NCBI RefSeq assembly: GCF_016592575.1
Contig: NZ_AP017470.1
Location: 1,746,501-1,810,500, forward strand
Direction of reading: 5' to 3'
Length of the DNA stretch: 64,000 nucleotides
DNA from: Thermotomaculum hydrothermale
GTDB lineage: Bacteria > Acidobacteriota > Holophagae > Thermotomaculales > Thermotomaculaceae
The notes under the pieces were generated by a model. That model worked only from the letters and a program-made list of their open reading frames with translations. It did no database searches and was not told the DNA's origin. A program made the position numbers and the translations under genes. The first letter of the stretch is position 1. Every line of letters begins with the position of its first letter. Below are positions 2,106-47,501 of the stretch, one piece after another.

Positions 2106-3938
2106 TTATTCCTTTATTTTACCTTCCTCTTTTAACTCTTCGTACCATTCTGGTCTCAAATGTTTAATTTCCTCAACAGGAATCTGGCCATCAATCCATG
2201 TAAAATCCATAGGATATACACCTGGATGGAAAATTACAAAGAAGAAGTGCCATACAAAAATTGCAAGAGTTGCTAACATTGCTTCATAAAAGTGAACTGT
2301 CTCAGCCACCTTTATAAACCAGGAAGGTAAGAATTGAGCAGCAATTTCAGGCATCCAGAGAGTCAAACCGGTTAAAATCATTACAAGTGTACCCCACATC
2401 AATGCAAGGTATTCCATTTTTTCCATATAGGTCACTTTACCGAATGATGGGTATTCATCTTTCAGAAGCAAACTATATGCAATATTATCCCTCATATTTC
2501 TGATATCTTTAGGACCAGGCAACATTGCAAGCAACACTCTTCTGTCTTCTTTGCCAATTATAATCCTCAATATGTGAATAATAAAGGCAGCAATCATTAC
2601 TAATGCCGCAATTCTGTGAGTCCAGCGCCTTACTTCTTCACCAAATGGGAAGAGGATATGCATAACGGTGCTATCGGGAAATCTCAAAGCAAAACCTGTT
2701 AATACAAGAGTAAAGAAAGACACAAAGAGTAATGTGTGCATCCAGACCTGTGCTTTAGACATTCTTTGAATTTTCTCTTCCTCTTTTCTCTTTCTATAGG
2801 AACGTCTTACATAGCCAAGCCAAACAATAAAGTTATGTAAGAACATACCACCAATAACTGCAATAATTAAAAAGATATATGCAAGCTTTACATAATAGTT
2901 GATAATATTTCCGCCCTTTGTGCTGGCTTTGTGAGTATAACTAACAGCAAACTTTTCATTAATATCGTTATGACATTTTTTGCAGGTATTCACAAGATTA
3001 GCTTTATTTACTGAACTCTTAGGATTTTCAGGACTCATTATAGCGTGGGTGTTATGGCAATCAACACAAGACGCTGCCTTTTTGCTTCCCTTTTTTATTG
3101 CCATATAATGATAACTATCTTTATAAGTATAGCCTACATTGTAATCAAGGCCATACCTTTTAACAAGCCTTGAGTCTTCGTGACAGGAAAGGCACAAATT
3201 TGAAATATCTTTTTTGGTATACGCAGGTGATTGAACTTCATGAGGATTATGGCAGTATGTACAAGTTGGAGATTCGTCATACCCCTTCATTACACCTTCA
3301 GCATGAATACTGGTACTATATTCTTTGGTTTCATTTTCGTGGCACTGCCCACAAGTTTTTGCCACATTAGCCCTATAAATCATAGATTTGGGATTGGCTG
3401 AAGTCATAATATTGTGAGAACCATGGCAATCTGCACAGCTTGCAGCAGGTTGCCCATCTTTGTCTTTCTTGGTAAAGTGAAAACTATGCCTGTACTGATT
3501 TACAATTATTGTGTTTCCATGGTATTTCTCAGAATCCCCATGGCACTTAGAACACATTTCTACAACAAGGTTTTTGTCTTCGGTAATTGATTTATCAACC
3601 CCTACTGCATGGATATCTCCATGACAATCCCAGCATTTAAGAGATTTGTGAACAGATAATTTTAATTCGTCAACATAATCTTCATGGCAATCTGTACATT
3701 GAGGGGTTTTGCCTTCAAGGTTGTCTGGATGAACTTCTTCAAAATCCTCTCCTTTTTTAACCTTATCGGCACCAACATGGCAATCTGTACATGAAAGGTC
3801 AGAGTGGATTGAGTTTTTGAATTTGTCTACCTGAATTGGCAAATCTCCATCTTTGCCATGGCAATCAAGACAGTTTATATCTCCTGCAAACACCAATGGA
3901 ACCGCACAGAACAAAAGCAGCACAAAAATCTTTTTCAT
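2106..3938 (-). CDS. CbcL-like multiheme cytochrome c fused to membrane cytochrome b (HydC/FdnI type)
   Basis: This 610-residue protein starts with a signal peptide (MKKIFVLLLFCAVPLVFA). Eleven CxxCH haem-c motifs follow between about residues 23 and 330, including CLDCH, CTDCH, CWDCH, CGQCH, CTYCH, CVDCH and CKKCH. The C-terminal 265 residues hold about five membrane helices with spaced histidines (WMH, THR, IHILR, VHFYE, WHFFF), as in the di-haem b subunits HydC and FdnI. This domain order matches Geobacter CbcL, an inner-membrane quinol oxidase feeding low-potential extracellular electron transfer, which carries nine c haems. Here it likely passes electrons from the quinone pool to periplasmic carriers. 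It is a single gene with its own promoter and terminator. No outer-membrane conduit genes are in the window. Confidence 0.85.
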   Translation of the reverse strand: MKKIFVLLLFCAVPLVFAGDINCLDCHGKDGDLPIQVDKFKNSIHSDLSCTDCHVGADKVKKGEDFEEVHPDNLEGKTPQCTDCHEDYVDELKLSVHKSLKCWDCHGDIHAVGVDKSITEDKNLVVEMCSKCHGDSEKYHGNTIIVNQYRHSFHFTKKDKDGQPAASCADCHGSHNIMTSANPKSMIYRANVAKTCGQCHENETKEYSTSIHAEGVMKGYDESPTCTYCHNPHEVQSPAYTKKDISNLCLSCHEDSRLVKRYGLDYNVGYTYKDSYHYMAIKKGSKKAASCVDCHNTHAIMSPENPKSSVNKANLVNTCKKCHNDINEKFAVSYTHKASTKGGNIINYYVKLAYIFLIIAVIGGMFLHNFIVWLGYVRRSYRKRKEEEKIQRMSKAQVWMHTLLFVSFFTLVLTGFALRFPDSTVMHILFPFGEEVRRWTHRIAALVMIAAFIIHILRIIIGKEDRRVLLAMLPGPKDIRNMRDNIAYSLLLKDEYPSFGKVTYMEKMEYLALMWGTLVMILTGLTLWMPEIAAQFLPSWFIKVAETVHFYEAMLATLAIFVWHFFFVIFHPGVYPMDFTWIDGQIPVEEIKHLRPEWYEELKEEGKIKE

Positions 3939-3974
3939 TTACCGCTCCTTCCCAAAATTTTTGTTCCATTGGTG

Positions 3975-4003
3975 ATTTTAGCAATGTTTACAATTTTAGT
4001 CAA
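3975..4003 (-). promoter_or_regulatory. Promoter of the CbcL-like cytochrome gene
   Basis: Read on the minus strand, TTGACT (4003-3998) and TAAAAT (3980-3975) are 17 bases apart, with TGC before the -10. The gene's ATG at 3938 follows after about 30 bases and has an upstream GGAGCGG. Confidence 0.65.
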
Positions 4004-4052
4004 AAATTTAAGAAAAGTTTTGTTGAAAATAAAAACATTATGTTGAAATTAA

Positions 4053-4838
4053 CTACACCACATAGTCTTCAATCTGCCTAAAAAACTCTTCAGGCAGATT
4101 TTTGACAACCTGTTTTTTGTAATCATACCCAACCATGTTAGTGTATGCCCTTGCCTTTATCTGCTTAGTCTTTCTATTGAGAATTGTGTAATTAAACCTG
4201 TATGATTTTTCAGTTAAATGTGAAATAAAGATTTCAACCCCTAACTCTTCCCCTAAAAATATTGGGGCAAGGTATTCAATTGAATGACCTGCAACCACCG
4301 AACAAAATTGAAGAGAACCGCCTCTTTCCTTTGCTACATGCTCTTTAAATCCTACCCTTGCCTCTTCAAGATAAACTAAAAAAACATTGTTGGATACATG
4401 TCCCATAGCATCAAGGTCTCTAAACCTTACCCTTATTTTATGAACATAAACCTTTTTAGGCTTTTTCTGGCATGAAAAAAATGTCTCTTCTTTGTTTATT
4501 TTTAGTTTAATTCTTCCACTAAAATCCTCTTTTTTTATTTTAGAGGGTTTAAATATCTCTATTAAACACACCCCATTTTCTCTTCTAAAAGAGGTTTTAA
4601 TGTTATCTTTTTCAAGAAGAATGGAAAAGGCCTGTGAAAACATTCCCGCTTTCATACTATCAATAGAATTCTCATTAAATTCCAAAACAGCAAAGCATTT
4701 CTTTTTTGCTCTACAATTAAAATTTTCAAATTCAAAATTAAAAATCTTTGCCGGTGATTTCACCTGAGCCCTTTTAACTGCTTCTTTAAAAGCACACAAT
4801 ACTGTATTTTTTAGAGAATCAACTATCATTTTTTCCAT
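4053..4838 (-). CDS. Acyl-CoA thioesterase (hotdog, 4HBT/YbgC-like) with a long N-terminal region
   Basis: The C-terminal half (about residues 128-255) is a 4-hydroxybenzoyl-CoA thioesterase-type hotdog: VRFRDLDAMGHVSNN carries the catalytic Asp and the conserved GHVxN turn, followed by YLEEAR. The protein is 261 residues, about twice the usual YbgC/FadM length of 130-140. The first 125 residues have no signal peptide and I do not recognise them; they may be a degenerate second hotdog. The likely role is hydrolysis of acyl-CoA or acyl-ACP in the cytoplasm. Its start overlaps the end of the MauE-like gene by 20 bases, so the two are probably co-transcribed, but the functional link is unclear. 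Confidence 0.75.
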   Translation of the reverse strand: MEKMIVDSLKNTVLCAFKEAVKRAQVKSPAKIFNFEFENFNCRAKKKCFAVLEFNENSIDSMKAGMFSQAFSILLEKDNIKTSFRRENGVCLIEIFKPSKIKKEDFSGRIKLKINKEETFFSCQKKPKKVYVHKIRVRFRDLDAMGHVSNNVFLVYLEEARVGFKEHVAKERGGSLQFCSVVAGHSIEYLAPIFLGEELGVEIFISHLTEKSYRFNYTILNRKTKQIKARAYTNMVGYDYKKQVVKNLPEEFFRQIEDYVV

Positions 4839-5277
4839 ACTTCCTCCCCATTAACACCAACAATATTAGCATTATAAAAACAATATCCCTGACTATATCT
4901 TTTATTCCGACTACTTCTCCGTTTTGGGAAAAACACCCGCATGAAGTATCAATCCCCCTTATAATCGCACTTGCCATTGCAAAAATAAAAACAATATTTA
5001 AAAGAATTAACAAAACGGCTGTTTCTTTCTCATAAACACCTAACAAAAACATAATCCCAAGAATAATCTCAGATGTTGTAATTAACGATGCAAAAGGAAT
5101 GATCAGAAAAGAGGGGAGAATATGATAATTATTTATTATCTCCCCAAATTGATATAGATTTAAAATTTTTACTGACCCAGAATACAAAAAAACCAATGCA
5201 ACAATTATTCTTACTGTGAAAATAATGCTTTTTGAAAAGATAAATCTTTTGAAATAGGATAATTCTTCTTTTGCCAT
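4819..5277 (-). CDS. MauE/DoxX-like redox-associated membrane protein
   Basis: This 152-residue protein has four predicted membrane helices. The first contains the DoxX/MauE-type VFLYSGSVKIL signature, and a CGCF cysteine pair lies between helices 3 and 4 (GIDTSCGCFSQNG). In methylamine dehydrogenase clusters, MauE assists disulphide formation and maturation of periplasmic proteins; many relatives pair with thiol-redox partners. Here its first 22 codons overlap the end of the rhodanese gene by 67 bases. No alternative ATG, GTG or TTG start downstream gives an intact first helix. The pairing suggests a periplasmic sulphur or thiol-handling module. Confidence 0.75.
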   Translation of the reverse strand: MAKEELSYFKRFIFSKSIIFTVRIIVALVFLYSGSVKILNLYQFGEIINNYHILPSFLIIPFASLITTSEIILGIMFLLGVYEKETAVLLILLNIVFIFAMASAIIRGIDTSCGCFSQNGEVVGIKDIVRDIVFIMLILLVLMGRKYGKNDS

Positions 5278-5684
5278 GCGTCAAATCCTTCCGTAAAAAT
5301 TATTAGTTTTTCTTTTTTTAAACCTGCGTTTAACAAATCTTTTGCAAGCATTTTACTTAATCCACACTCACTCCCATCACAGTAAACAACCACGTATTTC
5401 GCCCCGTTTAAAATATCAATAGCCTTAACTATATAATCATCTTTTTTTTCTGAATGGAAAGGGATGTTTATTGCTCCTTCAATGTGCCCCTTTGCATATT
5501 CCTCAAAGCTTCGTGCATCTACAAAGAAACAATTGCCCTGTTTATAAATTTTATAAATATAATCAACACTAATTTTCTTTTTTTGTGGTAAATTTTTCTT
5601 TTCTGCAAAAGAAGTAAAGTAGGTAAACAAGGCAAAGATAAAGATTATTCCCACTATTTTCAAATAATTTCTTAATTCTCCCAT
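5211..5684 (-). CDS. Membrane-anchored rhodanese-like sulfurtransferase
   Basis: The N-terminus (residues 1-28) is one membrane anchor or signal segment, so the domain probably faces the periplasm. A single rhodanese domain follows: FVDARSFEEYAKGHIEGAINIP gives the CH2A-type region, and VVYCDGSECGLS supplies the active-site loop with a cysteine in the expected place. The length of 157 residues suits a single-domain enzyme. It likely moves sulfane sulphur or works in thiol redox chemistry with the overlapping MauE-like protein. The start has an upstream GGAGGTACT. The substrate cannot be told from sequence. Confidence 0.8.
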   Translation of the reverse strand: MGELRNYLKIVGIIFIFALFTYFTSFAEKKNLPQKKKISVDYIYKIYKQGNCFFVDARSFEEYAKGHIEGAINIPFHSEKKDDYIVKAIDILNGAKYVVVYCDGSECGLSKMLAKDLLNAGLKKEKLIIFTEGFDAWQKKNYPISKDLSFQKALFSQ

Positions 5685-5736
5685 AGTACCTCCGTTAATA
5701 AATTCACAAAAAAATTATAGCATTAAAAATAAAAAA

Positions 5737-5753
5737 GCCGGCTAAAAGCCGGC
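5737..5753 (-). terminator. Intrinsic terminator of the pil operon
   Basis: The stem GCCGGCT / AGCCGGC with a 3-base loop is followed on the minus strand by six T residues (5736-5731). It lies just past the pilC stop codon at 5776. Confidence 0.85.
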
Positions 5754-5775
5754 ACTTAAACATTATTATTTTTGA

Positions 5776-6972
5776 TTATTTTATATGTTTAATTAAGCTG
5801 AATATAGGCAGGTACATTGATACAACTATACCACCAACCAATCCACCTAAAACAACAATCATAACAGGCTCTAATAAGCTCATTAACTGGGCAACCGCCT
5901 GGTCAACCTCTTCTTCATAAAAATCAGCAATTTTTGAGAGCATTGTATCAAGGGCGCCAGTCTGCTCACCTACACCAATCATCTGAACAACCATTGGTGG
6001 AAAAACCTTTGTATTTTTTAAAGGTTCGGAAATTGTTTTACCCTGTTCTACCTGAAGCCTTGCCTCTAATACTGCATCTTCAACAATCTTGTTTCCAGCT
6101 GTTTTTGCTGTAATCATTAACCCTTCAAGGATTGAAACACCTGATGATACTAAAGTTGCAAGTGTTCTACTAAACCTTGCTACCGCAATTTTTCTAAAAA
6201 TAATTCCCAAAATTGGAAGTTTAAGAACAAAACCGTCTATCAACTTTCTGCCTGTTTCTGTCTGGTAAAATTTCCTTAACCCAATAAACACCAATATAAA
6301 GAAAAGAATTATCCAGAAACCAAAATTAACAACAAAATGAGAAAGCTTAATAACTATTCTTGTGGGGAGCGGCAATTCTGCACCTAAACCTGCAAACATA
6401 GACGCAAAAGCGGGAATTACCTTCCACAAAATCAATGCAACAATTAACACCGCTATTGTAATAACAGTTATTGGATAAGTCATCGCACTTTTGAAAGATT
6501 CCTTCAATTTGTAGGCCTTCTCAATATATATGGAAAGCCTTTGCATAATAACATCAAGAATACCACCAGCCTCACCAGCTGCAATAAGGTTTGTATACAA
6601 ATCATCAAACACCTTCGGATGCTTTTTCATAGCATCGGCAAGGGTGCTACCCTGCTCAACATCATTTCTTACCTGTTCAAGTACATTTGCAAAAAATTTA
6701 TTCTCCTGCTGAGATGCAAGAATATCCAGGCATTGAACAAGAGGCAGGCCTGCATCAATCATTACCGAAAATTGCTTGGTAAAAATTGCAAGCTCCTTGT
6801 TTTTTACCTTGCCTCCAAATCCAAAAGCACCTATTGATTTTTTCTCCCTTAAAGAAGTGAGAATCAACCCCTGCTTCCTCAATAAATTTATTGCTTCTTC
6901 CCTATTTTTCGCTTTTATAGTTCCAGCTCTTGTCTCCCCTGACCTTGTTCTTGCACTATACTCAAATATCAT
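5776..6972 (-). CDS. pilC: Type IV pilus assembly inner-membrane protein PilC
   Basis: At 398 residues this is the standard size for the PilC/GspF family. Two repeated T2SF domains are visible, at about 70-190 (start GLPLVQCLDILASQQ) and 270-392 (GVSILEGLMITAKTAGN). Three membrane stretches lie near 170-195, 220-240 and the C-terminus. The N-terminal FEYSARTRSGETRAGTI is typical. PilC is the platform protein on which PilB and PilT act to add or remove pilin subunits. The gene is last in pilB-pilT-pilC, 14 bases after pilT, and a terminator follows. Confidence 0.95.
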   Translation of the reverse strand: MIFEYSARTRSGETRAGTIKAKNREEAINLLRKQGLILTSLREKKSIGAFGFGGKVKNKELAIFTKQFSVMIDAGLPLVQCLDILASQQENKFFANVLEQVRNDVEQGSTLADAMKKHPKVFDDLYTNLIAAGEAGGILDVIMQRLSIYIEKAYKLKESFKSAMTYPITVITIAVLIVALILWKVIPAFASMFAGLGAELPLPTRIVIKLSHFVVNFGFWIILFFILVFIGLRKFYQTETGRKLIDGFVLKLPILGIIFRKIAVARFSRTLATLVSSGVSILEGLMITAKTAGNKIVEDAVLEARLQVEQGKTISEPLKNTKVFPPMVVQMIGVGEQTGALDTMLSKIADFYEEEVDQAVAQLMSLLEPVMIVVLGGLVGGIVVSMYLPIFSLIKHIK

Positions 6973-6986
6973 GAAATCCTCCCGAA

Positions 6987-8126
6987 TTATGTATATTTAA
7001 TTTTTGGATTTCTCTTTGTAGTGGGTTGAGTAGGCTGTTCAATAACAGTACCAACACCTCTATTTATCATATCAATTAATTCATCTTTATTTGACGATGC
7101 TGCAAGAGCTACCTCTTTTGTAATCAATCCCTGCAAAAACAGTGAAGCAAGGGATTGGTTAAATGTTTGCATACCATGTTTCATCTGACCTGTCTGCATT
7201 GTAGCGTAAATCTGATGTATTTTGTCCTCTCTAATCAAGTTTCTCACAGCCGCATTTGGTATCAGTATTTCCAGTGCAAGAACCCTTCCTCTACCGCTAG
7301 CCTTGGGAAGAAGCGTTTGACAAATTACACCTTCCAATACAAAAGAAAGCTGTGTTCTTATCTGCTGTTGCTGGTGAGCAGGGAAAATATCTATAATCCT
7401 GTTTATAGTTTGAACTGCCGAGTTAGTATGCAATGTAGCAAAGGTTAAATGGCCTGTTTCCGCAATCTTTAAGGCTGTTTCAACAGTTTCTAAATCCCTC
7501 ATCTCACCAATAAGAACGACGTCAGGATCCTGTCTCAATGCTGCTCTTAAAGCCCTGCTAAATGATTTTGTGTCTGTATTGACTTCCCTCTGATTAACAA
7601 TACACTTTTTATGTGAATGTAAATACTCTACCGGGTCTTCAATTGTAATAATATGGGCATTTCTCTCTCTGTTTACTTTGTCTATCATTGCCGCCAGAGT
7701 GGTTGATTTACCTGAACCTGTTGGCCCTGTAACAAGCACAAGCCCTCTGGGAAGCTCACACAATTTTTCAACAACCATTGGAATTCCAAGCTCTCTAAAC
7801 CCCCTTATTTCATACGGGATAAGCCTGAATGCACCTGCAACTGCACCTCTTTGATGAAACACATTTGCCCTGAACCTTGCAAGTTTCTTTATTCCAAATG
7901 AAAAGTCAACTTCTAAATCCTGTTCAAACTTTTGTTTTTGAGCATCTGTCATAATTGCGTAAATTAATTTCTTTGTTTCAGCCGGGGTTAAAGGAGGCAT
8001 TTTCAAGGGGATAAGTTTCCCGTCTTTTCTTATTTGAGGAGGACTATTGGTTGTTATGTGAAGGTCTGTTCCTCCCGATTCAACCATTTTTTTCAGCAAC
8101 TGCGATAGAGTAATATCCATACTCAC
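6987..8126 (-). CDS. pilT: Type IV pilus retraction ATPase PilT
   Basis: This 379-residue GspE/PilT-family ATPase carries Walker A GPTGSGKST, the Asp box ITIEDPVEYLH, Walker B VVLIGEMRD and the His box TGHLTFATLHT. The C-terminal VRNLIRE matches the AIRNLIRE motif needed for retraction in PilT, separating it from PilB and PilU relatives. It powers pilus disassembly and so twitching motility or DNA uptake. It lies between pilB (31 bases upstream) and pilC. The last 25 residues are Thr/Pro-rich and variable. Confidence 0.95.
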   Translation of the reverse strand: MSMDITLSQLLKKMVESGGTDLHITTNSPPQIRKDGKLIPLKMPPLTPAETKKLIYAIMTDAQKQKFEQDLEVDFSFGIKKLARFRANVFHQRGAVAGAFRLIPYEIRGFRELGIPMVVEKLCELPRGLVLVTGPTGSGKSTTLAAMIDKVNRERNAHIITIEDPVEYLHSHKKCIVNQREVNTDTKSFSRALRAALRQDPDVVLIGEMRDLETVETALKIAETGHLTFATLHTNSAVQTINRIIDIFPAHQQQQIRTQLSFVLEGVICQTLLPKASGRGRVLALEILIPNAAVRNLIREDKIHQIYATMQTGQMKHGMQTFNQSLASLFLQGLITKEVALAASSNKDELIDMINRGVGTVIEQPTQPTTKRNPKIKYT

Positions 8127-8157
8127 CCCTTAATTTAAAAAAATTAATTTTACAGTA

Positions 8158-9879
8158 TTATAACACAGTTTCTCTTAAAACTTCCTCAATTGAGGTGATT
8201 CCAGCTTTAATTTTTATTAATCCACTTCTCCTTAAAGTAATCATCCCCTCTTTTATTGCCTGCTCCCTTAAATCAAGAGCAGTCGCTCCGCTTAATATCA
8301 AATCTTTAATAGCATCTGTTACTTCCATAACTTCGTACAAACCTACCCTGCCCTTGTACCCAGAACCATTACAAACATCGCAACCTTTACCCTTGTATAT
8401 TTTTAAATCCTTCAATTCTTCTTCTTTAAAACCAATATCAAGCAAGGTTTTTTTGGGAACCTTTACCTCTTCTTTACAATTTTTACAAACCCTTCTAACA
8501 AGCCTCTGGGCGCATATAAGGTTAACAGAAGTTGCAACAAGGAAGGGCTCAATACCCATATTCATCAACCTGCTTATTGTTGAGGGAGCATCATTTGTGT
8601 GCAAAGTTGACAGAACAAGGTGGCCCGTTAATGCCGCTTTAATAGCAATTTCTGCAGTTTCAAAGTCCCTTATCTCACCAACAAGAATAATATTAGGGTC
8701 CTGCCTTAAAAATGACCTTAATGCAGATGCAAAAGTAAGGCCTATTTCATCCCTAACATTTACCTGATTTATTCCAGGAAGGTTAAACTCAACAGGGTCT
8801 TCAGCTGTCATAATGTTGGTTTCAGGGGTATTCAACTGGCTTATCGCAGAGTACAAAGTATTTGTTTTACCTGAACCTGTTGGCCCTGTAACAAGCACCA
8901 TACCATAAGGTTTTCTTATTGCCTCTGTAAATTTATCAAGACTTTCCTGCTCAAAACCAAGCCTGGTCATATCAAGCATTAATTTTTCAGGATCCAAAAT
9001 TCTCATAACTATTTTTTCGCCAAAAAGGGTTGGCAATACAGAGACACGAAAATCAAGTTCTTTTTTCTTCCCCTCTATTTTCATTTTTAGCTTAATTCTA
9101 CCGTCCTGAGGAAGCCTTTTTTCTGCAATATCAAGTTTTGACATAATCTTAATTCTTGAAGTAATTGCATCTTTCATACTTAAAGGTGGTTTCATTACCT
9201 CATGCAAAATACCGTCTATCCTAAATCTTACTCTGTAATACTTTTCATAAGGTTCAACATGGACATCTGATGCTCCTTTTTTTACTGCGTCCACCAGCAT
9301 CATATTTACAAATTTCACAACAGGGGCTTCCTCAACAGAAGCAACAAGGGAATCAAGATCTATTTCTTCTTCATCCTCTACAACTTCAAGGTCAGTGTCC
9401 TCACCTAAGTCTCCTTCAAGGTCTTCAACAACCTTTCTCAATTCAATCTGGGTTTCACTCCCGTAGTATTTATCAATTGCTTTTTTTATTGACAACTCAG
9501 ATGCAACAACAGGTTCAACATTTAAACCTGTTAAAAATTTAATATCATCTAACGCATAGATATTTGTGGGGTCAGCCATAGCCACAGTCAGAGTAGAACC
9601 TGTTCTTGTAATAGGTATTAGCATATATTTTCTTGCTATATCTGATGGTATTCTTTTTATAACATCCTCGCTAATCTCAAAGTGTTCAAGATTAACAGCA
9701 GGAATACCATACTGTTTGCTTAAAAAACTGGTAATCTCTTCCTCAGTAAGATAACCTAATTTAACCAGTATAGTTCCTAACCTTTCATTGTCCTTTTTTT
9801 GAATTTCTAACGCTTCTTGTAATTGTTCTTTGGTAATTAAACCGGCCTCAACAAGTAAATCACCTAACTTCTTAGCCAT
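8158..9879 (-). CDS. pilB: Type IV pilus extension ATPase PilB
   Basis: An N-terminal MshEN/T2SSE-N domain (LGDLLVEAGLITKEQLQEAL) precedes the ATPase core, which has Walker A GPTGSGKT and Walker B IILVGEIRD. The PilB-specific zinc site is CKNC...CDVC. An acidic linker near residues 155-175 separates the domains. I place the start at the ATG at 9879: the AAAGG ribosome site then has a 6-base spacer, whereas the in-frame TTG at 9885 would sit directly against it. PilB drives pilus polymerisation. Pilin, PilM-Q and PilD genes are not in the window. Confidence 0.95.
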   Translation of the reverse strand: MAKKLGDLLVEAGLITKEQLQEALEIQKKDNERLGTILVKLGYLTEEEITSFLSKQYGIPAVNLEHFEISEDVIKRIPSDIARKYMLIPITRTGSTLTVAMADPTNIYALDDIKFLTGLNVEPVVASELSIKKAIDKYYGSETQIELRKVVEDLEGDLGEDTDLEVVEDEEEIDLDSLVASVEEAPVVKFVNMMLVDAVKKGASDVHVEPYEKYYRVRFRIDGILHEVMKPPLSMKDAITSRIKIMSKLDIAEKRLPQDGRIKLKMKIEGKKKELDFRVSVLPTLFGEKIVMRILDPEKLMLDMTRLGFEQESLDKFTEAIRKPYGMVLVTGPTGSGKTNTLYSAISQLNTPETNIMTAEDPVEFNLPGINQVNVRDEIGLTFASALRSFLRQDPNIILVGEIRDFETAEIAIKAALTGHLVLSTLHTNDAPSTISRLMNMGIEPFLVATSVNLICAQRLVRRVCKNCKEEVKVPKKTLLDIGFKEEELKDLKIYKGKGCDVCNGSGYKGRVGLYEVMEVTDAIKDLILSGATALDLREQAIKEGMITLRRSGLIKIKAGITSIEEVLRETVL

Positions 9880-9909
9880 ATGCAACCTTTCATAAATGAT
9901 AGTAAAATC

Positions 9910-9938
9910 AGTTTAAAAAATCTAATATTATTTGTCAA
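9910..9938 (-). promoter_or_regulatory. Promoter of pilB-pilT-pilC
   Basis: On the minus strand a perfect TTGACA (9938-9933) is followed after 17 bases by TAAACT (9915-9910), about 30 bases before the pilB start. It implies the pilus operon is transcribed separately from the upstream glpX operon. Confidence 0.65.
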
Positions 9939-9959
9939 TATTTTTATTTGAAAAAAAAA

Positions 9960-10937
9960 TTAAAACATTACCCCCTGACCTATATCATCGTTAAGATAAA
10001 TAGTATCAACAAATCTTATTCTTCTCTGGTTAAGCCTCATAACAAGGGAGTTCACTCTTATCCCTTCACCAAAAAACCTAACACCTTTTAAAAGGTTCCC
10101 GTTTGTTACCCCGGTTGCAACAAAAATTATATTTTCTCCACTTGCAAGTTCTTCTGTTGTATAAATTTTATTCGGGTCTTTAATCCCCATTTTCTGCATT
10201 CTCTCCCATGTTGCCTCATCCTTTACAATAAGCCTCCCCTGTATTTCCCCACCAAGACACCTTAAAGCTGCGGCAGTTAAAACGCCTTCGGGAGCGCCTC
10301 CTATTCCGAATACTGCATGAACTCCGGTGCCCCTTACTGCAACAGAGATACCTGCACTTAAATCACCGTCACCTATCAAATTTATCCTGGCACCAGCTTC
10401 CCTAATTCTGGCAATAAGCTCCTCATGTCTCGGTCTGTCGAGAACAATAACAGTTAAGTCTTCAACCTTTCTATCAAGGCTATCGGCAATAATTTTCAAA
10501 TTTTCTTCAACAGAGTTATCCAGGCTTACCTTGCCTTTTGCAGATGGAGGAACAATAATTTTCTCCATATAAATATCAGGGGCATTTAGCAATCCCCCTC
10601 TCTCTGACGCAGCAATTACTGCTATTGCATTGTTTGCTCCAGTTGCACAAAGATTTGTGCCTTCAAGTGGGTCAACTGCAATGTCAATTGCAGGACCATC
10701 CCCTGTTCCCACCTTTTCTCCAATATATAACATTGGGGCCTTGTCCCTTTCTCCCTCGCCTATTACAACTTCTCCATTAATATCAACATTATCCAGTTCT
10801 TTCCTCATTGCCTCAACTGCAACTTTATCTGAGTATTTTCTATCACCCTTTCCTACAGTCCTTGCTGCGGCAATAGCCGCCATTTCAGCAACCCTTAAAA
10901 AATCCCCTGCCAACGCATCTTCAATATTCTTTGGCAT
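9960..10937 (-). CDS. glpX: Class II fructose-1,6-bisphosphatase GlpX
   Basis: This 325-residue protein has the GlpX metal and substrate motifs [16 protein letters not shown] and [13 protein letters not shown], plus [20 protein letters not shown]. It hydrolyses fructose 1,6-bisphosphate to fructose 6-phosphate in gluconeogenesis; some relatives also take sedoheptulose 1,7-bisphosphate. It ends a leftward operon, 12 bases after glutaryl-CoA dehydrogenase. An rpe gene in the same operon fits pentose/hexose phosphate supply. No terminator hairpin is visible after it. Confidence 0.95.
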
Positions 10938-10949
10938 AATTCCCCCCTT

Positions 10950-12119
10950 TTATTTTAGAAGGCTGAAAGCCTGAAATCCTGTAATGTATTGCCCTAAAAT
11001 CAGGGTGTGAATATCCTCTGTCCCCTCATATGTTTTTACAGATTCAAGGTTAACCATATGTCTTATAACCGGATATTCAAGGGAAATTCCGTTTGCTCCA
11101 AGAATATCCCTCGCTGTTCTTGCAATATCCAGTGCCATTCTAACATTGTTCATTTTAAGCATAGAAATCATATAATGGGAGTATTTCCCACTATCTTTTA
11201 ACCTTCCAACCTGCAAGGCAAGCAATTGTGCCTTTGTAATTTCTGTGAGCATATCTGCAAGCTTTTTCTGCACAAGTTGAAACCTTGCAATAGGAACATC
11301 AAACTGAATTCTTGTCTTCGCATAATCAACCGCAGTTAGATAACAGTCAATTGCCGCACCTAATGCACCCCAGCCTATTCCATACCTTGCCTGGGTTAAA
11401 CACATTAAAGGGTACTTCAATCCTTTAGCTAAAGGCAATCTATTTCCCTCAGGTACTTCAACATCCTCAAATATTAACTCTCCTGTAACAGAAGCCCTTA
11501 AACTTAATTTATGCTTAATCTCTGGCGCAGAAAAACCAGGCATATCTTTTTCAACAATAAAGCCCTGGATACCTTCTTCAGTTTTCGCCCACACGACTGC
11601 TATATCTGCAATTGAAGCATTTGTTATCCACATCTTTGTACCGTTTAAAATCCATTTATCACCCTTTTTGACAGCATATGTTTTCATCCCCCCAGGGTTT
11701 GAACCAAAATCTGGTTCAGTTAGACCAAAACAACCTATTAAATTACCGTCTATCAATCCAGGTAGATATTTCTTTTTCTGCTCTTCTGAACCAAATTCAT
11801 AAATCGGATAAATCACAAGGGAGGATTGGACTGAAACAAAACTCCTTAATCCGCTGTCTCCCCTTTCTAATTCCTGATTTATCAACCCATAGGCAACATT
11901 TGAAAGCCCTGCACCACCATATTCACTCAAAGTGCTGCCTAAAAAACCAAGTTCTCCAAGCTGTTTTACAAGGTGAATAGGGAATTCCCCCCTCTCAAAG
12001 TAATCAGCAATTATTGGCTTAACCTCATTGCTTACAAAATCATGGACTGTATCATAAACAAGCCTTTCTTCTTCGGTTAATAAGTCTTCAATCTTTAAAA
12101 AATCGGGGTAATTTCTCAT
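10950..12119 (-). CDS. gcdH: Acyl-CoA dehydrogenase, glutaryl-CoA dehydrogenase-like
   Basis: The 389-residue sequence follows the glutaryl-CoA dehydrogenase pattern: LSEYGGAGLSNVAYGLI, SVQSSLVIYPIYEFGSEEQ, GCFGLTEPDFGSNPGGM, and a C-terminal RHMVNLESVKTYEGTEDIH with the catalytic Glu in YEGT. The family oxidises and decarboxylates glutaryl-CoA to crotonyl-CoA, passing electrons to ETF. It overlaps bamD by 4 bases (ATGA). It could belong to aromatic or lysine degradation, but no partner genes are nearby, so the exact substrate is inferred from similarity. Confidence 0.85.
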   Translation of the reverse strand: MRNYPDFLKIEDLLTEEERLVYDTVHDFVSNEVKPIIADYFERGEFPIHLVKQLGELGFLGSTLSEYGGAGLSNVAYGLINQELERGDSGLRSFVSVQSSLVIYPIYEFGSEEQKKKYLPGLIDGNLIGCFGLTEPDFGSNPGGMKTYAVKKGDKWILNGTKMWITNASIADIAVVWAKTEEGIQGFIVEKDMPGFSAPEIKHKLSLRASVTGELIFEDVEVPEGNRLPLAKGLKYPLMCLTQARYGIGWGALGAAIDCYLTAVDYAKTRIQFDVPIARFQLVQKKLADMLTEITKAQLLALQVGRLKDSGKYSHYMISMLKMNNVRMALDIARTARDILGANGISLEYPVIRHMVNLESVKTYEGTEDIHTLILGQYITGFQAFSLLK

Positions 12120-13024
12120 TTATCCTCCGCTTTTTCTTTCTTCTTTTTAGACTTTTTTTTCTTCCCTTTTGCTTTTTTAATTCTTTTTTCCAATTCTTTT
12201 TTATACTTTTCTTCAATTTTCTTCTTTCTTTCTTTTAATTCTTTTTCTGCCTTACCGCTTTCAATATAATCAAGTTGTTCCTTTACTGAATCTCTATAAA
12301 TTGTATTGGGAAATTCCTTCAACAATTTTCTAAAATACCTTGCAGCCTCGTCAAATTTCGTTTCATACATTAAACTTCTTGCAAAATAATAGTAAGCCTT
12401 TTCTTTGTCATAATACTTCGGGTCATAATTTTCAATAAGCCCCCTTAATCTATCAGCTGCCGCTTTGTATCCTTTAACCTTGTAATAAAAAACACCAACA
12501 AGGTATTCGTGCTGTGCTTTTATTTTCCAGCAATAATCAATATATTTGTCAGCCATCTGGGCATACTTTGAATCTGGGTAATTTGATTTAAGTTTTTCAA
12601 ATTCAGCCATTGCCTGATCAACATAAGTCTGGTCTCTATCAGGACCATTTATCTGAACAAAGTAACACATTGCCACCATAAATTGAGCATATGGAGTTTC
12701 CTTGTGTTTAGGGAAATAAACAATAAAAGACTGGTATTCCGGCAAAGCCTCAATAGGGCCTTTTGAAACATCAAAGAATAAAGCATCTGCATATGCCAAT
12801 TTTGCATATGGAAAATACTCAGACTGGGTAGCATTGTCTATTATTACTTCAAAATAATCCCTTGCAGAGGAATAATTTTTGTTTAATAGATACTCCATCC
12901 CATCTAAATATACTTTGGAAACTGAAATCTTTTTCGCCCTTTCAATATTGGCTTCTTTCGCCGATTTACAGGCATTAAAAAATAACAGGATAAATACTAA
13001 AAGCCCTATAATAATTTTTTTCAT
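12116..13024 (-). CDS. bamD: Outer membrane assembly lipoprotein BamD-like (TPR)
   Basis: An N-terminal lipoprotein signal (MKKIIIGLLVFILLFFNAC) is followed by tetratricopeptide-like repeats at about 40-235 with the BamD/YfiO pattern (YFEVIIDNATQSEYFPYAKLAYADALF). The C-terminal 60 residues are extremely Lys/Glu-rich (KKKIEEKYKKELEKR), longer than in E. coli BamD. BamD is the essential lipoprotein partner of BamA in beta-barrel insertion. The gene overlaps rpe upstream and gcdH downstream by 4 bases each. A generic periplasmic TPR lipoprotein is the main alternative. Confidence 0.85.
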   Translation of the reverse strand: MKKIIIGLLVFILLFFNACKSAKEANIERAKKISVSKVYLDGMEYLLNKNYSSARDYFEVIIDNATQSEYFPYAKLAYADALFFDVSKGPIEALPEYQSFIVYFPKHKETPYAQFMVAMCYFVQINGPDRDQTYVDQAMAEFEKLKSNYPDSKYAQMADKYIDYCWKIKAQHEYLVGVFYYKVKGYKAAADRLRGLIENYDPKYYDKEKAYYYFARSLMYETKFDEAARYFRKLLKEFPNTIYRDSVKEQLDYIESGKAEKELKERKKKIEEKYKKELEKRIKKAKGKKKKSKKKKEKAEDK

Positions 13025-42000: not shown

Positions 42001-43686
42001 TTGGCTAAAGGGAAAAACAATGATAGAAATTATGACCCAATTGCCCCTGGAAACGACAACACAAACCCATTAGAGGAGATTATCCAACTTCCTATTGACA
42101 ATGAAGAAATTAAAGAACCAACTACCACAGAAAAAGAGGCAACAAACCCATTAAGAGAGATTATCCAGCCATTTATTGACTTTGCAAAAGTGCCAAAGGT
42201 TTTATGGGGAGTAAACATCTCATACCTGATTGAAGGTATGGTTTACTTCGGAATTTTGACCTTTATGGCAATTTACTTCAACGATTTTTTTGGTCTAAAC
42301 GACCATCAGGCAGACCTTGTTGTTGGATTTTTCACAGGAGGCATTACCCTCGCAATGCTATTTTTAGGGGGAATGTCAGATAAAATCGGGATAAGAAAGG
42401 CGTTGCTTTTTTCCCTTATCTTTATGCTTATAGGCAGAATTATTTTTACAGGCGTGCCGTATGAAATGCTATTTGGTAAAGGCTCATGGGTGGTTTTATA
42501 CTACGCTGCACTATTTGGGCTTTTCCTTGTTATTATTGGTTACGGAATGTATCAACCTGCCGCCTATGCTGCTGTAAAAGAGTTTACAGACGAAAAAACA
42601 GCAACAATGGGATATGCAGTCCTTTACGCAGTAATGAATTTAGGCGGTTTTCTGCCTGGCTTAATATCCCCGAGAATAAGAGCATGGTACAGGGATTTCT
42701 TCATTGCAAAACTAAAAGCAGCTGGAATTGCAGTTAACCCTGATGTGCATTACGGGATGTTAGGGGTTTTCTGGTTTTATGTTATTTCAACATTTTTAGG
42801 GATTGTTGTTTTATTGATTTATGTTAACAAAAAGACAATTGCAAAGGCATTAGAAGAAAAGAAACAAAAAGAGCTTGCTCAGGGCAAATCAGAAGAACAG
42901 ATAGAAAAAGAAAGACAGGAAAACAAACCAAAGAAGAGAAGCTTAAAACAGTACTTTTTAGAACACCCATTAAGGGATGTAAAGTTTGCATTCTTTATTT
43001 TTGCATTAATCCCTGTTCAAACATTATTTGCCCACAACTGGCTAACACTTCCACAGTATGTTGACAGGGCATTCGGCCCAACAGTTAAGGCAAACATGGA
43101 ACTCTTCGTAAACTTTAACCCGATACTTATTTTTATATTAACCCCGCTTGTTGCAGCAATTACCGCAAAATCTGACACAATGAAAATGATGATATTAGGC
43201 ACCTTTGTAATGGCTTTGCCTACATTCTTCCTTGCAATAGGGCCAAATGTTTACACATTGTTTGCATACATTATTGTTATGTCAATAGGCGAGGCTATGT
43301 GGCAGCCGAGATTCTTGCAGTATGCGGCAGAATTAGCACCTCCCGGAAGGACAGGGGAATACATGGGGATTGCACAGTTTCCATGGTTTTTAACAAAAAT
43401 TATTACAGCGCTATACGCAGGTTGGTTTCTCATGCATTACTGCCCTGTTGAAGGCCCAAAACACACTGAGCAGATGTGGTTTTACTATGGATTAATTGCA
43501 ATCACATCCCCAATTCTTCTATTCCTCACAAGGGGATGGCTTAGAAAAGAAAAAGAGGAGAGAGACGAGTCTATCCTCTCCACAATTATTGCAATTTTTA
43601 TTGGGATAATTGTTGTAGCAATTCTCATTTACATGGTAAAAATGTTAATAACCATACTTGTTACAATTCCTATGTCAAGAATATAA
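42001..43686 (+). CDS. Major facilitator superfamily transporter
   Basis: At 561 residues it has about 12-13 membrane helices with a central cytoplasmic loop (about 280-325, very Lys/Glu-rich). The loop-2 MFS motif GGMSDKIGIRKALL is clear. The soluble N-terminus (1-60) carries a duplicated 13-residue segment, TNPLEEIIQLPID and TNPLREIIQPFID. The start is TTG with GGAGG upstream. The substrate is not evident; the sequence has a POT-like feel but lacks a diagnostic signature I can verify. ispF follows one base after its stop. Confidence 0.85.
   Translation: MAKGKNNDRNYDPIAPGNDNTNPLEEIIQLPIDNEEIKEPTTTEKEATNPLREIIQPFIDFAKVPKVLWGVNISYLIEGMVYFGILTFMAIYFNDFFGLNDHQADLVVGFFTGGITLAMLFLGGMSDKIGIRKALLFSLIFMLIGRIIFTGVPYEMLFGKGSWVVLYYAALFGLFLVIIGYGMYQPAAYAAVKEFTDEKTATMGYAVLYAVMNLGGFLPGLISPRIRAWYRDFFIAKLKAAGIAVNPDVHYGMLGVFWFYVISTFLGIVVLLIYVNKKTIAKALEEKKQKELAQGKSEEQIEKERQENKPKKRSLKQYFLEHPLRDVKFAFFIFALIPVQTLFAHNWLTLPQYVDRAFGPTVKANMELFVNFNPILIFILTPLVAAITAKSDTMKMMILGTFVMALPTFFLAIGPNVYTLFAYIIVMSIGEAMWQPRFLQYAAELAPPGRTGEYMGIAQFPWFLTKIITALYAGWFLMHYCPVEGPKHTEQMWFYYGLIAITSPILLFLTRGWLRKEKEERDESILSTIIAIFIGIIVVAILIYMVKMLITILVTIPMSRI
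42061..42180 (+). repeat. 39-bp direct repeat inside the transporter N-terminus
   Basis: The copies at 42061-42099 and 42142-42180 are near-identical at the DNA level and 81 bases apart (27 codons), encoding the duplicated TNPLxEIIQxxID segment. The recent duplication lies in a part of the protein without membrane helices. Confidence 0.8.
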
Positions 43687-43687
43687 A

Positions 43688-44176
43688 ATGGATATCAGAA
43701 TAGGACAGGGAATAGACTTTCACAAATTTGAATACGGAAGAAAGCTAATAATAGGGGGAGTTCAGTTTGACTCCCCCTTTGGCTTAAAAGGCCATTCAGA
43801 CGCAGATGTATTGCTTCACGCAATAACAGATGCACTTTTAGGGGCAATTGGCGAAAAAGACATTGGCTTCCACTTCCCCGATACTAATGAGGAATTCAAA
43901 AACGTAGATTCAAGGATTTTTCTTGAAAAAGCAATAAGCCTTGCAAGGGGAAAAGGGTTTGAAATATCAAACATAGACGCCACAATAATCTGCGAAACCC
44001 CAAAAATAAACCCATTCAGGGAAAAGATTGAAGAAAACATAGCAAACATACTCAAAATTGAAAAAAACAGGGTAAACATTAAAGCCACAACAACCGAAAA
44101 AATGGGCTTCATCGGCCGCAAAGAAGGGATTGCTGCAACCGCTGTTGTACTGCTGGAATCAGTAACTAATCAATAG
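43688..44176 (+). CDS. ispF: 2-C-methyl-D-erythritol 2,4-cyclodiphosphate synthase
   Basis: The 162 residues from the ATG at 43688 are full-length IspF: GQGIDFHKFE (zinc ligands Asp and His), LKGHSDADVLLHAITDALLGA and the signature [16 protein letters not shown]. It acts in the MEP isoprenoid pathway. An alternative start at 43658 would overlap the transporter gene and adds no family sequence. The last 47 codons and the DNA just after the stop are repeated, with divergence, at 46682-46845. Confidence 0.96.
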   Translation: MDIRIGQGIDFHKFEYGRKLIIGGVQFDSPFGLKGHSDADVLLHAITDALLGAIGEKDIGFHFPDTNEEFKNVDSRIFLEKAISLARGKGFEISNIDATIICETPKINPFREKIEENIANILKIEKNRVNIKATTTEKMGFIGRKEGIAATAVVLLESVTNQ

Positions 44177-44203
44177 AGGCAATATATTTGCATTAAGGAA
44201 ATT
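44036..44203 (+). repeat. Left direct repeat: ispF 3' end plus decayed end of a convergent gene
   Basis: This stretch matches 46682-46845 with about 24 mismatches and one 3-base gap by eye. It covers the ispF C-terminus, where many differences are synonymous, and runs on past the stop. The bases after the stop, read on the minus strand, give KFP*CKYIASID. This corresponds to [12 protein letters not shown] of the DUF2726 protein, now with a stop in it. The left copy therefore keeps an intact ispF and a broken DUF2726 tail. Confidence 0.85.
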
Positions 44204-44425: not shown

Positions 44426-45955
44426 TCATAAACCTAATTCTTCAATTGTTTTCCCCTCAAGTTGGTAATTGTTTCCAAGACTATCTTTTCTCTTATTTAT
44501 TTCTACAATTATGTTCTCAACAGATCTTGGGATTTCTTTTGCAACTAGTCTCGCAACTTTAGGGCTTTTCCCTTCATCTTTTACTACACCATCCCAATAC
44601 ATTAATAACTGGTAAGCATCTAATGGAGCAGCTGTTCCCGCTTTTAATTCATAAATATGTATTCCCCCATCATTTAATTCATGATAAATATCCACTTTCA
44701 CGCCAGCACCACTCCAAATAGGTTTATCTCTTTGGACAGTGCTGTTTGTGCAATGTCCTTCTAACATTATTTTCAATTTCTTTGATAAATCTCTCTCGAT
44801 TTTAGCACCAGTTATTCTTTGTGGTTTATAATCATCAGCATCGAGTTTTTCTAGTAATCTTATCCAATATGGGTTATGAGGATTTAAACTAATTTTGTTA
44901 TTTACAGTTCTAAATTTAGAATCATTTAAAATAAGTTCCCCAACAAATTTATTAAAGTTGTTATGTCTTGGAATATCAGGCCAAATCTCAGGAAGTTGAC
45001 CAGCTTTTAGAACACGACCCCTAACAACTATATCAATACCTTGTGTTGGAATATTCCCTTGATAATAAATTTTTAAAGGATAAGGTTTCCCTTGAGAAAC
45101 ATCTCTTACTTTTTCAGTATCTAAATTCCCTCTAACATAAATTGCTCTAGCACATCCCTCTGGACCCTCGACTTCAAATTCTGTAGATTGAGAACCACCT
45201 GCATCATAAGGTATCTTAATTGGTTTTATTCTAAACTCTTCCCATTCAGCATTATTATTAGGATTTCTTTCATCATCCCCTAAAATTCTCCACCTTAACC
45301 ACAACTTATTGTGTTCATTATTTAAAAATCCTCTATACATTACTCCTAAATGTTCTATAAATCTTTCTACCAAAGTTTCAAAGGTTCTTGCTCTGGGATA
45401 TAATGTATTGAAAAACTCAAAAGATGTCTCTGCAACAACTCTTGTCCCACGATCTAATTTAACATGGGCAAGTCCTTTATTCCATAAAGTGATATCATCC
45501 AATTCTAATTTCATTTGGGAACTAAAGGGTCCTTTAACTAAATAAACCAACTTCTGATTTACTGCTTCGTCGTCTCTTGTTTTAAGAGTCCAAGGAAGTT
45601 TGTTCCCTATCGTTAAGACACATAGAGCATTTTTCAAGCCAAAACCATGCTCATTTAAAGGTCCTTCCGATCTCCCCTTACCACCTAAAGAAAAAATGTG
45701 TTCTGTTATTTCATCAACTGTCATTCCAATTCCTTCATCTGCTACTGTTACCAATATTTTATTTCCTAATTTCTCCAATGTTATCTCAATTTTGAATGGA
45801 AGTAAATCACCTTCTGAATCTTTACCAGAGGCTGATATGCTATTATCAATTAATTCTCCTATTACTTGATGAAAATCCATTTCTTGTCTCCCTAATCCTT
45901 CCCAATATCTTTCTTCTTCGATGGAAATTATCACATCTTTAGGAAAATCACTCAT
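44426..45955 (-). CDS. GHKL ATPase fused to PD-(D/E)XK nuclease-like domain (MORC/MutL-type), putative defence protein
   Basis: The N-terminal GHKL ATPase carries GELIDNSISAS (34-41, metal-binding Asn38), DEGIGM (73-78) and EHGFGLKNA (102-110). This is the MutL/Hsp90/MORC style, without a histidine-kinase H-box. Residues 190-400 are unassigned. The C-terminus has VDIYHE (Asp422), YELKAG (Glu436-x-Lys438) and YQLLMYW (Gln449xxxTyr453), the ordered residues of PD-(D/E)XK nucleases with a RecB/Cas4-like QxxxY. No membrane segment is present. It has a very strong ribosome site (AAGGAGGTGA) and lies 101 bases after the winged-helix gene. I infer an ATP-gated nuclease; a GHKL regulator with an inactive nuclease fold is possible. 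Confidence 0.72.
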   Translation of the reverse strand: MSDFPKDVIISIEEERYWEGLGRQEMDFHQVIGELIDNSISASGKDSEGDLLPFKIEITLEKLGNKILVTVADEGIGMTVDEITEHIFSLGGKGRSEGPLNEHGFGLKNALCVLTIGNKLPWTLKTRDDEAVNQKLVYLVKGPFSSQMKLELDDITLWNKGLAHVKLDRGTRVVAETSFEFFNTLYPRARTFETLVERFIEHLGVMYRGFLNNEHNKLWLRWRILGDDERNPNNNAEWEEFRIKPIKIPYDAGGSQSTEFEVEGPEGCARAIYVRGNLDTEKVRDVSQGKPYPLKIYYQGNIPTQGIDIVVRGRVLKAGQLPEIWPDIPRHNNFNKFVGELILNDSKFRTVNNKISLNPHNPYWIRLLEKLDADDYKPQRITGAKIERDLSKKLKIMLEGHCTNSTVQRDKPIWSGAGVKVDIYHELNDGGIHIYELKAGTAAPLDAYQLLMYWDGVVKDEGKSPKVARLVAKEIPRSVENIIVEINKRKDSLGNNYQLEGKTIEELGL

Positions 45956-46056
45956 TTTATTTCACCTCCTTAAATTACTATGTATTTTTTGTGGGTTTAT
46001 TACTAAATGATAAATATGATATTGGATAGTGGCGAGTATGAAAATCAAGAAGTGGG

Positions 46057-46296
46057 CTAAGCATTTTCAACCTCATTAATACCCTTTTTCGTAATCGTAA
46101 TAAAACCACCAAGACCTACAATTTGAACCAACCCTTCTTTGACAAGATATTCCAAAACTATTTCTTTAGTTAATCCCTTGTCAAACCCCAGTTCTTTGCC
46201 AACTTCATACATATCGATTGGTTCATATCCCTTTTCCCTGCTTAATTCGTAAAGTTTATGAAGAAACTCACTTTTCAATTCATCTTTTGTACTCAT
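46057..46296 (-). CDS. Small winged-helix protein
   Basis: This 79-residue protein has helices at about 5-20 and 25-35, a KGLTKEIVLEYLVKEGLV recognition-type helix, and a LGGFITITKKG beta-wing, the outline of a winged helix-turn-helix. AGGAG lies 7 bases before the ATG. It precedes the GHKL-nuclease gene on the same strand, so it may regulate that gene or be its DNA-binding partner. The fold call is by pattern; no family name is certain. Confidence 0.6.
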   Translation of the reverse strand: MSTKDELKSEFLHKLYELSREKGYEPIDMYEVGKELGFDKGLTKEIVLEYLVKEGLVQIVGLGGFITITKKGINEVENA

Positions 46297-46681
46297 TTTT
46301 TAACTCCTAATCTCATTTTATTTATTTATCAAACATTAGGTATACATATTTTATTATATTAAATCATACACTTACACTCCTTACTATTCTTTCAAAGAAA
46401 TTTCCCATCTTCTTAGGTTTTTGTCCACATTGATTTTATTAGTAGATTCCTTTCTCTTAAAATATTTGACACTATCTTTAAAAGTCATTAAATATAGATT
46501 ATTTCCCAGCATCTATCACTCTTCTTTTAAATTTAATTTATTATATTGAAAAAAAAAGAGAAAAACAAGTTTTTTTTGATTTTTTTTCTTTTTTGAGTGA
46601 GAATAGGTAGTCTTATCTTAATTCAAAACAGTGGAATGGTAGAATTTCGTTTACCTACCCTGACAAAAAATTTAGACAAAA
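46297..46681. other. AT-rich non-coding part of the island with a rightward promoter
   Basis: No protein-coding frame is convincing in these 385 bases. A consensus TTGACA (46466-46471) and TAAATA (46489-46494) with a 17-base spacer point right, away from the island genes. Downstream lies a long A-tract followed by T-tracts (46544-46600), which could fold as a terminator. A small RNA of about 100 bases would fit. A possible minus-strand TATAAT (46358-46353) upstream of the winged-helix gene lacks a clear -35. Confidence 0.4.
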
Positions 46682-46819
46682 AACATTGCCCAGATATTTA
46701 AAATTGAAAAAAACAGAGTAAACATAAAAGCAACAACAACTGAAAAAATGGGCTTTATCGGCCGCAAAGAAGGCATTGCTGCAACCGCTGTTGTGCTGCT
46801 TATTTCAACTAATCAATAG
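46682..46819 (+). pseudogene. ispF: ispF 3'-end remnant (right repeat copy)
   Basis: These bases encode [20 protein letters not shown] through the signature [14 protein letters not shown] to a TAG, matching the last 46 residues of IspF at 44036-44176. There is no start and the preceding frame is broken. About half of the differences to the intact gene are silent, so the fragment diverged under coding constraint before it was cut off, most simply in another lineage. Its stop overlaps the 3' end of the DUF2726 gene on the other strand. Confidence 0.85.
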
Positions 46820-46845
46820 GTTCAATATATCTGCATTCCGGGAAT
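46682..46845 (+). repeat. Right direct repeat: ispF remnant plus intact DUF2726 tail
   Basis: Partner of 44036-44203. This copy keeps the intact end of the DUF2726 gene ([14 protein letters not shown]) but only a fragment of ispF. Together the copies show the ancestral order: ispF and DUF2726 converging with overlapping 3' ends. Confidence 0.85.
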
Positions 46846-47501
46846 CTTGAGCATGCCCAGAATTTTTTTCCTGCATTTTTTCCTTTTTTTGCCACTTTAA
46901 TTACCATTTTAGAATTACATTTAGGGCACAATTTAACATCTTCAACAGGAATTTCAGGCACTTTTGTTTCCCTTAAATTTACATAATTTGAGAGGATGTC
47001 TCTAATCTCATTTGGAGAATACCCTTCCCTCACATTTATTTCAAGCAAGGGTATTCCTGCACTTTCGCATGCTTTCCTTAAAAAATCGTCTCTTTCCATT
47101 CTTTTTGCAGATTTATGGCTTTTGTCGTTTAACTCAATAACACACAACACTTCAAGTGTGTTTTTATCACATATAACAAAATCAAAATGCTTCCCTGAAA
47201 TTCTGTTAAATGCCTTTTGCCATTCACTTTTATCAAGCCTTGAAAGGGGAGTTAAAATATCGGCAACCCTGATTTTTGCAAATATATCCGCATGTCCTTC
47301 CAGTACTCCTTTTAATACCCCGTAAAAAGACCTTTCAGCAGGGGTAAAAACACTTTTCTTTTTCCTGTATGGCAACTTTTGCTCTTTTAAAATAAAAACA
47401 CCTTCTTTGTTTAATACCTTTATAATTTGCTTTGCTACCATAATTAAAATCAACAGTGCAATTAATCCGCTTATCGCTAACACAATAAGATTTAAAAGCA
47501 T
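46809..47501 (-). CDS. Membrane-anchored DUF2726 protein with topoisomerase-type zinc ribbon
   Basis: This 230-residue protein has one N-terminal membrane helix (3-25). A DUF2726 domain spans about 50-170 ([38 protein letters not shown]), a predicted PD-(D/E)XK-like fold. A C-terminal zinc ribbon has CPKC and CSRFPEC, as in bacterial topoisomerase I. It may act on nucleic acid at the membrane, but the role is unknown. GGAGG precedes the ATG. Its last codons overlap the ispF remnant. Confidence 0.82.

Follow-up and report, generated by a model that had tools for sequence, protein, structure and literature searches.

The window, a 64,000-nucleotide stretch of the 2.317-Mb, single-contig genome of Thermotomaculum hydrothermale, contains a gene for a 509-amino-acid protein that joins a MORC-type GHKL ATPase to a PD-(D/E)XK nuclease. 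The gene lies in an AT-rich insert together with an open reading frame (ORF) of 79 amino acids, and the insert separates ispF from a DUF2726 gene. Both ORFs had been called in the original prediction and were confirmed at their coordinates (Table 1).

TABLE 1 Features of the insert and its flanks, in window positions
Feature	Positions	Strand	Basis
ispF (YgbB), upstream of the insertion site	43658..44176	+	Pfam
Repeat copy 1: functional ispF 3' end plus about 25 bp resembling DUF2726 C-terminal codons (other strand)	44034..44202	+	
Inserted AT-rich segment, GC 24-34% versus 36-40% in flanking housekeeping genes; one copy in genome	44203..46679		
GHKL (MORC-type) ATPase, middle/S5-like region, PD-(D/E)XK nuclease fusion, 509 aa	44426..45955	-	ORF, Pfam, AlphaFold2, homologs
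NucS/EndoMS-like PD-(D/E)XK nuclease, residues 383-509: E387, D422, E436, K438, Q449, Y453	44429..44809	-	Alignment, profile, AlphaFold2, Foldseek
Middle/S5-like transducer, residues 191-382: MORC-like G306-h-x-h-x4-R314-h-[LIV] signature; K354 conserved	44810..45385	-	AlphaFold2 model, alignment
GHKL ATPase domain, residues 1-190: E34/D37/N38, D73-G77, G104-G106-K108, T171	45386..45955	-	Pfam, invariant residues, Foldseek
79-aa ORF, winged-helix-like by eye	46057..46296	-	ORF list
Repeat copy 2: remnant of the native ispF 3' end, which overlaps the native DUF2726 3' end; junction as in G001	46680..46845	+	
DUF2726 plus topoisomerase-type zinc-ribbon gene, downstream of the insertion site	46809..47501	-	Pfam; abuts ispF in G001

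The large protein matched the Pfam models HATPase_c (E = 8.9e-10) and HATPase_c_3 (E = 6.9e-9), both above the Pfam cut-offs, and it carries the GHKL motifs E34/D37/N38, DEGIGM (residues 73 to 78), and GFGLKNA (residues 104 to 110). Conservation was assessed in 13 homologs with 20 to 81% identity to the query. Within the ATPase and transducer, E34, D37, D73, G77, G104, G106, K108, T171, and K354 were invariant and N38 was nearly so, and in the nuclease domain E387, D422, E436, K438, Q449, and Y453 were invariant; invariance over such a range of identities excludes chance for the motif residues. The GHKL motifs and the last five of these nuclease residues had been picked out in the original prediction and were borne out by Pfam and the homologs, while E387 had been missed.

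A full-length AlphaFold2 model built from 11 sequences had a pLDDT of 81.4 and a pTM of 0.68. When it was compared with the PDB using Foldseek, SMCHD1 (9e-14) and MORC3 (1.5e-12) ranked first, with matches extending over about 420 alignment columns, followed by Hsp90/TRAP1, PMS1, and topoisomerase VI-B; the model also resembles phage RIIA proteins. An S5-type domain follows the GHKL domain, as seen in the model, the MORC3 and SMCHD1 matches, and the conserved K354, which is a candidate lysine finger. The GhXhhpXXRhl motif of MORC proteins was present in full in 2 of the 13 homologs and in a relaxed form in 12 of them, at the same aligned site. There the query reads GIDIVVRGRVL, a single mismatch to the full motif with valine at the polar position, and on this motif we rejected membership in the MORC family proper. 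The eukaryotic MORC3 and SMCHD1 proteins share the ATPase and transducer fold, with the G...R motif in the S5 domain, but they lack a nuclease domain and have chromatin functions.

In the C-terminal domain, E387 completes an E-D-ExK set (E387-D422-E436xK438), after which comes Q449xxxY453. The last 135 residues, modeled alone, gave a pLDDT of 91 and a pTM of 0.84, with the order helix-strand-strand-strand-helix-strand. The mismatch endonucleases NucS and EndoMS were the best matches by both fold (Foldseek, 1.5e-5 and 1.2e-4, respectively) and sequence profile (4e-8 and 5e-7). Weaker fold matches were obtained with EcoO109I, Can2, Card1, and Cap4, and there were weak Cas4 matches. The D, ExK, and QxxxY residues of the query are in register with those of NucS/EndoMS, the EndoMS entry shown having alanine at the D position. 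Whole-length membership in that family was rejected: the nuclease domain alone matches, the NCBIfam NucS model scored far below its cut-off, and NucS/EndoMS proteins have no GHKL ATPase. With NucS and EndoMS as closest nuclease relatives and MutL/PMS1 among the ATPase matches, the protein might be viewed as a DNA-repair enzyme, uniting a MutL-like ATPase and an EndoMS-like mismatch nuclease in one piece. We regard this as very unlikely, given that the resemblance to NucS is limited to the nuclease domain and that the family has a sporadic, mobile distribution, with prophage, plasmid, and restriction-gene contexts and methylase fusions.

The original prediction knew of no named system with this build, and here it has to be corrected. 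The paraMORC3 proteins described by Iyer, Abhiman & Aravind in 2008 (PMC2292703) consist of GHKL and S5 domains and a C-terminal RE-fold, RecB-like nuclease with E-D-ExK; they are sporadic and laterally mobile, and a subset stands alone without conserved neighbors. Compared by published description rather than by sequence, our protein has the same GHKL domain, S5-type domain, and C-terminal E387-D422-E436xK438 nuclease. The paraMORCs are said to lack the GhXhhpXXRhl motif (PMC2292703), whereas the S5 region here has most of the MORC signature. The same layout is found in an experimentally tested anti-phage protein, VcSduA from Vibrio cholerae (2025 Nature Microbiology, PMC12137116), a GHKL protein with a DUF4263 nuclease that blocks phages, in which E27A and K557A each abolish defense and which has been tied to paraMORC3 and to Shedu type I-D. 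Our protein shares with VcSduA and Shedu type I-D an N-terminal GHKL domain, a clamp-like middle, and a C-terminal PD-(D/E)xK nuclease in one stand-alone polypeptide, and by role its E34 and K438 match E27 and K557. It is shorter (509 residues versus at least 557) and differs in its nuclease: PF14082 (DUF4263/SduA_C) did not match the protein at E ≤ 1, and profile similarity was undetectable by hhalign (Prob 0.2) in a comparison with five DUF4263 proteins that had no positive control. On these two results we rejected membership in Shedu (SduA). By its layout, then, we call the protein a paraMORC3-type nuclease, and by the DUF4263 test it falls outside Shedu. A PF14082 search of the host genome found none, and screening the plasmid Shedu matches for a VcSduA-like GHKL-DUF4263 protein also found none. 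MzaB of the MZA system likewise uses a MutL-like GHKL ATPase in defense, but its curated cut-off is 850 and the query scored 18, and no other mza genes were seen at the locus. PADLOC models gave a meaningful score for none of the family members scanned.

The closest homologs are in other phyla, at 81% identity in a Planctomycetota metagenome-assembled genome (MAG) and at 95% over 43 residues in an Aquifex MAG, the latter a fragment at a contig end. Relative to the Planctomycetota homolog, dN was 0.127 and dS was 1.58, and the protein is therefore maintained under purifying selection. DNA similarity with that homolog starts at the Shine-Dalgarno site of the large gene (AAGGAGGTG, just upstream of its start) and ends at the stop codon, and the 79-amino-acid gene is absent upstream of both homologs. 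A conserved two-gene module, as originally predicted, was accordingly rejected. The small ORF has a good Shine-Dalgarno-like ribosome site of its own. Searches for a family, a solved relative, or a plasmid, viral, or close-genome homolog of its product found none, so that "winged helix" describes only how its sequence reads, and the proposed role as repressor or DNA-binding subunit found no support. The two genes lie on the same strand within one insert, which is what might be expected if the small protein controlled the nuclease as a repressor or antitoxin; with its gene missing beside the 81%- and 95%-identical homologs, similarity beginning at the large gene's ribosome site, and no relatives found, we judge such a unit quite unlikely. 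With 101 bp between the genes and a separate ribosome site for the large one, an operon is not established. At most, the 79-amino-acid ORF acts as a local regulator or travels as a passenger.

The insertion itself left a trace. In the sister genome G001, of the same genus, ispF and the DUF2726 gene abut, and in T. hydrothermale about 165 bp of the ispF 3' end occur on both sides of the insert, a duplication that had gone unnoticed in the original prediction. The DUF2726 gene encodes a hydrophobic N terminus, and among the same-genus genomes searched it adjoins ispF only in G001. Over the in-frame part compared (44060 to 44154), the two ispF copies differ at 8 codons, all 8 synonymously, and at least 3 of these differences look like derived states in copy 2, the one that is no longer functional (five-sequence alignment read by eye, against G001, G003, and G004). 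Since the differences are all synonymous and some of the derived-looking ones are on the nonfunctional copy, it is most likely that the two ends diverged while each belonged to a working gene, as functional ispF alleles would. It follows that the insert most likely carried its own ispF end or came by recombination from the DNA of a relative. Integrating elements can restore the 3' end of the gene at their insertion site. The presence of the ispF end in two copies around the insert would also be produced by a simple target-site duplication, upon transposition in the host lineage, but the pattern of synonymous differences fits two functional alleles and makes that origin improbable. No integrase was found in the 2.5-kb insert, promoter and terminator scans did not rise above chance, and Rfam gave no match. 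The 509-amino-acid protein was sought in 60 relatives and was absent. The gene is foreign DNA that was acquired recently and entered at the ispF 3' end, in a housekeeping locus rather than a defense island. Long target duplications framing inserted restriction-modification (R-M) genes have been described (Nobusato 2000, cited in PMC3031569). In those cases, as here, host-gene sequence repeated in direct orientation brackets a restriction-type gene; the difference is that the copies here are diverged alleles and not identical duplicates.

Homologs are thinly spread. A survey of 246 Planctomycetota genomes gave 1 full-length match, in the genome already known, and the other matches listed were short and nearly all to the GHKL region. 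Among 136 Aquificota genomes there was none at E ≤ 1e-20, a cut that the known Aquifex copy, as a contig-end fragment, was unable to pass. Searching from two homologs for further plasmid and phage relatives gave nothing new. Homolog genes are AT-rich for their contigs, with a GC content of 36% where the contig has 46% and of 38% where it has 53%. The Lactiplantibacillus homolog adjoins a Sau3AI-family restriction endonuclease (REase) and a recombinase, the Priestia homolog sits among dcm, MutH/Sau3AI, PLD-type REase, and SbcCD/SMC genes, the Ligilactobacillus homolog has a recombinase nearby, and a homolog on a small plasmid adjoins a toxin-antitoxin pair and an integrase. On two viral contigs, with functions read by eye from the sequence, one homolog lies between two serine recombinases (L035) and the other, in a lysogeny module, has an integrase on one side and a repressor-like gene on the other (L061). 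In this small and varied sample, the neighborhoods follow a defense and mobile-element pattern. On haloarchaeal plasmids, a related GHKL part is joined in one protein to an N6_N4 DNA methylase; nuclease and methylase appear to be interchangeable on the same ATPase.

Some of these loci have features of their own. The haloarchaeal GHKL-methylase fusions adjoin a second site-specific methylase (L008, 7980 to 10877; L009, 7950 to 10877). The Priestia plasmid has a dense putative defense region around the homolog (L005, 76 to 16878), with SMC/SbcCD, PLD-type and other REases, dcm, SNF2, and MutH/Sau3AI. In two further viral contigs, a distant GHKL-nuclease relative occupies the same position (L064, 5983 to 7545; L067, 1740 to 3311), with replication-type genes that look clamp-loader-like by eye.

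An R-M role with an unlinked methylase was among the possibilities that Iyer et al. raised for paraMORC3 genes that stand alone (PMC2292703), and our protein could be such an accessory, working with a methylase elsewhere in the host genome. Candidate partners exist, namely, a C5-methylase operon in which another GHKL protein is encoded, and a methylase adjoining a ResIII helicase, and distant homologs adjoin REases and dcm. Against this, a methylase is absent at the locus and beside the closest homologs, and the gene has passed between phyla singly, which renders an accessory role unlikely. The first of these host loci (L095, G000:C1:286000-301000, at 7323 to 12871) encodes a C5 methylase, a 730-amino-acid protein with two HATPase domains, a 482-amino-acid protein without a known family, and an EndIII-like glycosylase. 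It is a second GHKL-R-M module of the host and resembles the paraMORC or two-component-like R-M loci of PMC8011034; the HEF_HK and Response_reg_2 models found no match in it. In the second (L096, G000:C1:1031000-1045000, at 3837 to 7432), the ResIII-type helicase gene adjoins a gene for an N6_N4 methylase, and the two may constitute a type III-like R-M system.

Taken together, these data make it rather probable that the 509-amino-acid protein is a stand-alone, horizontally spread defense or restriction nuclease of the MORC/paraMORC type. The intact GHKL site, the SMCHD1/MORC3 fold, the NucS/EndoMS-like nuclease, the invariant catalytic residues, and their union in one polypeptide speak for this reading, as do the purifying selection, the position of the closest homologs in other phyla while 60 relatives lack the protein, the AT-rich composition of the gene in GC-richer hosts, the homolog contexts, and the published work on paraMORC3 and VcSduA. 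Against it stand the housekeeping locus, the lack of a fitting PADLOC model, the few and varied homolog contexts, and the fact that both sequence and fold relate the nuclease to DNA-repair enzymes (NucS/EndoMS) rather than to DUF4263 proteins. The original prediction thus stood in part. Its fusion of a MutL/MORC-type ATPase and a nuclease in a defense or restriction setting is supported by the folds, invariant residues, and homolog contexts, and what it depended on, a nuclease fold at the C terminus (pLDDT, 91), conserved motif residues, and contexts that are not only housekeeping, was found; its novelty and its two-gene composition did not hold.

As a defense nuclease, the protein would act as a homodimer. 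ATP binding would close the GHKL gate and clamp the DNA, and the transducer, with K354 as candidate lysine finger, would relay the ATP state to both nuclease domains, which may then cut invading DNA. Because no methylase is encoded alongside, the target would be chosen by the state of the DNA and not by a methylated site; host DNA might be spared by an enzyme that senses structure or state, such as ends, replication forks, topology, or mismatch-like distortion. We raise tentatively the possibility of a distinct, unnamed single-gene defense subfamily that combines a MORC-like clamp with an EndoMS-type cutter, not DUF4263, senses structure or topology, and moves as a bare gene among thermophile phyla.

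The GHKL-nuclease architecture has been known since 2008, as is now the anti-phage action of VcSduA, a distant counterpart; judged by sequence comparison, what differs here is the NucS-like build of the nuclease. A compact, single-protein MORC-type ATPase-nuclease, probably from a thermophile, would lend itself to structural and biochemical studies of the control of DNA cutting by a MORC-like clamp, an issue that also concerns the eukaryotic MORC and SMCHD1 silencing proteins. The protein also suggests that GHKL-nuclease defense extends beyond DUF4263 (Shedu), and searches based on Shedu would therefore miss this branch.
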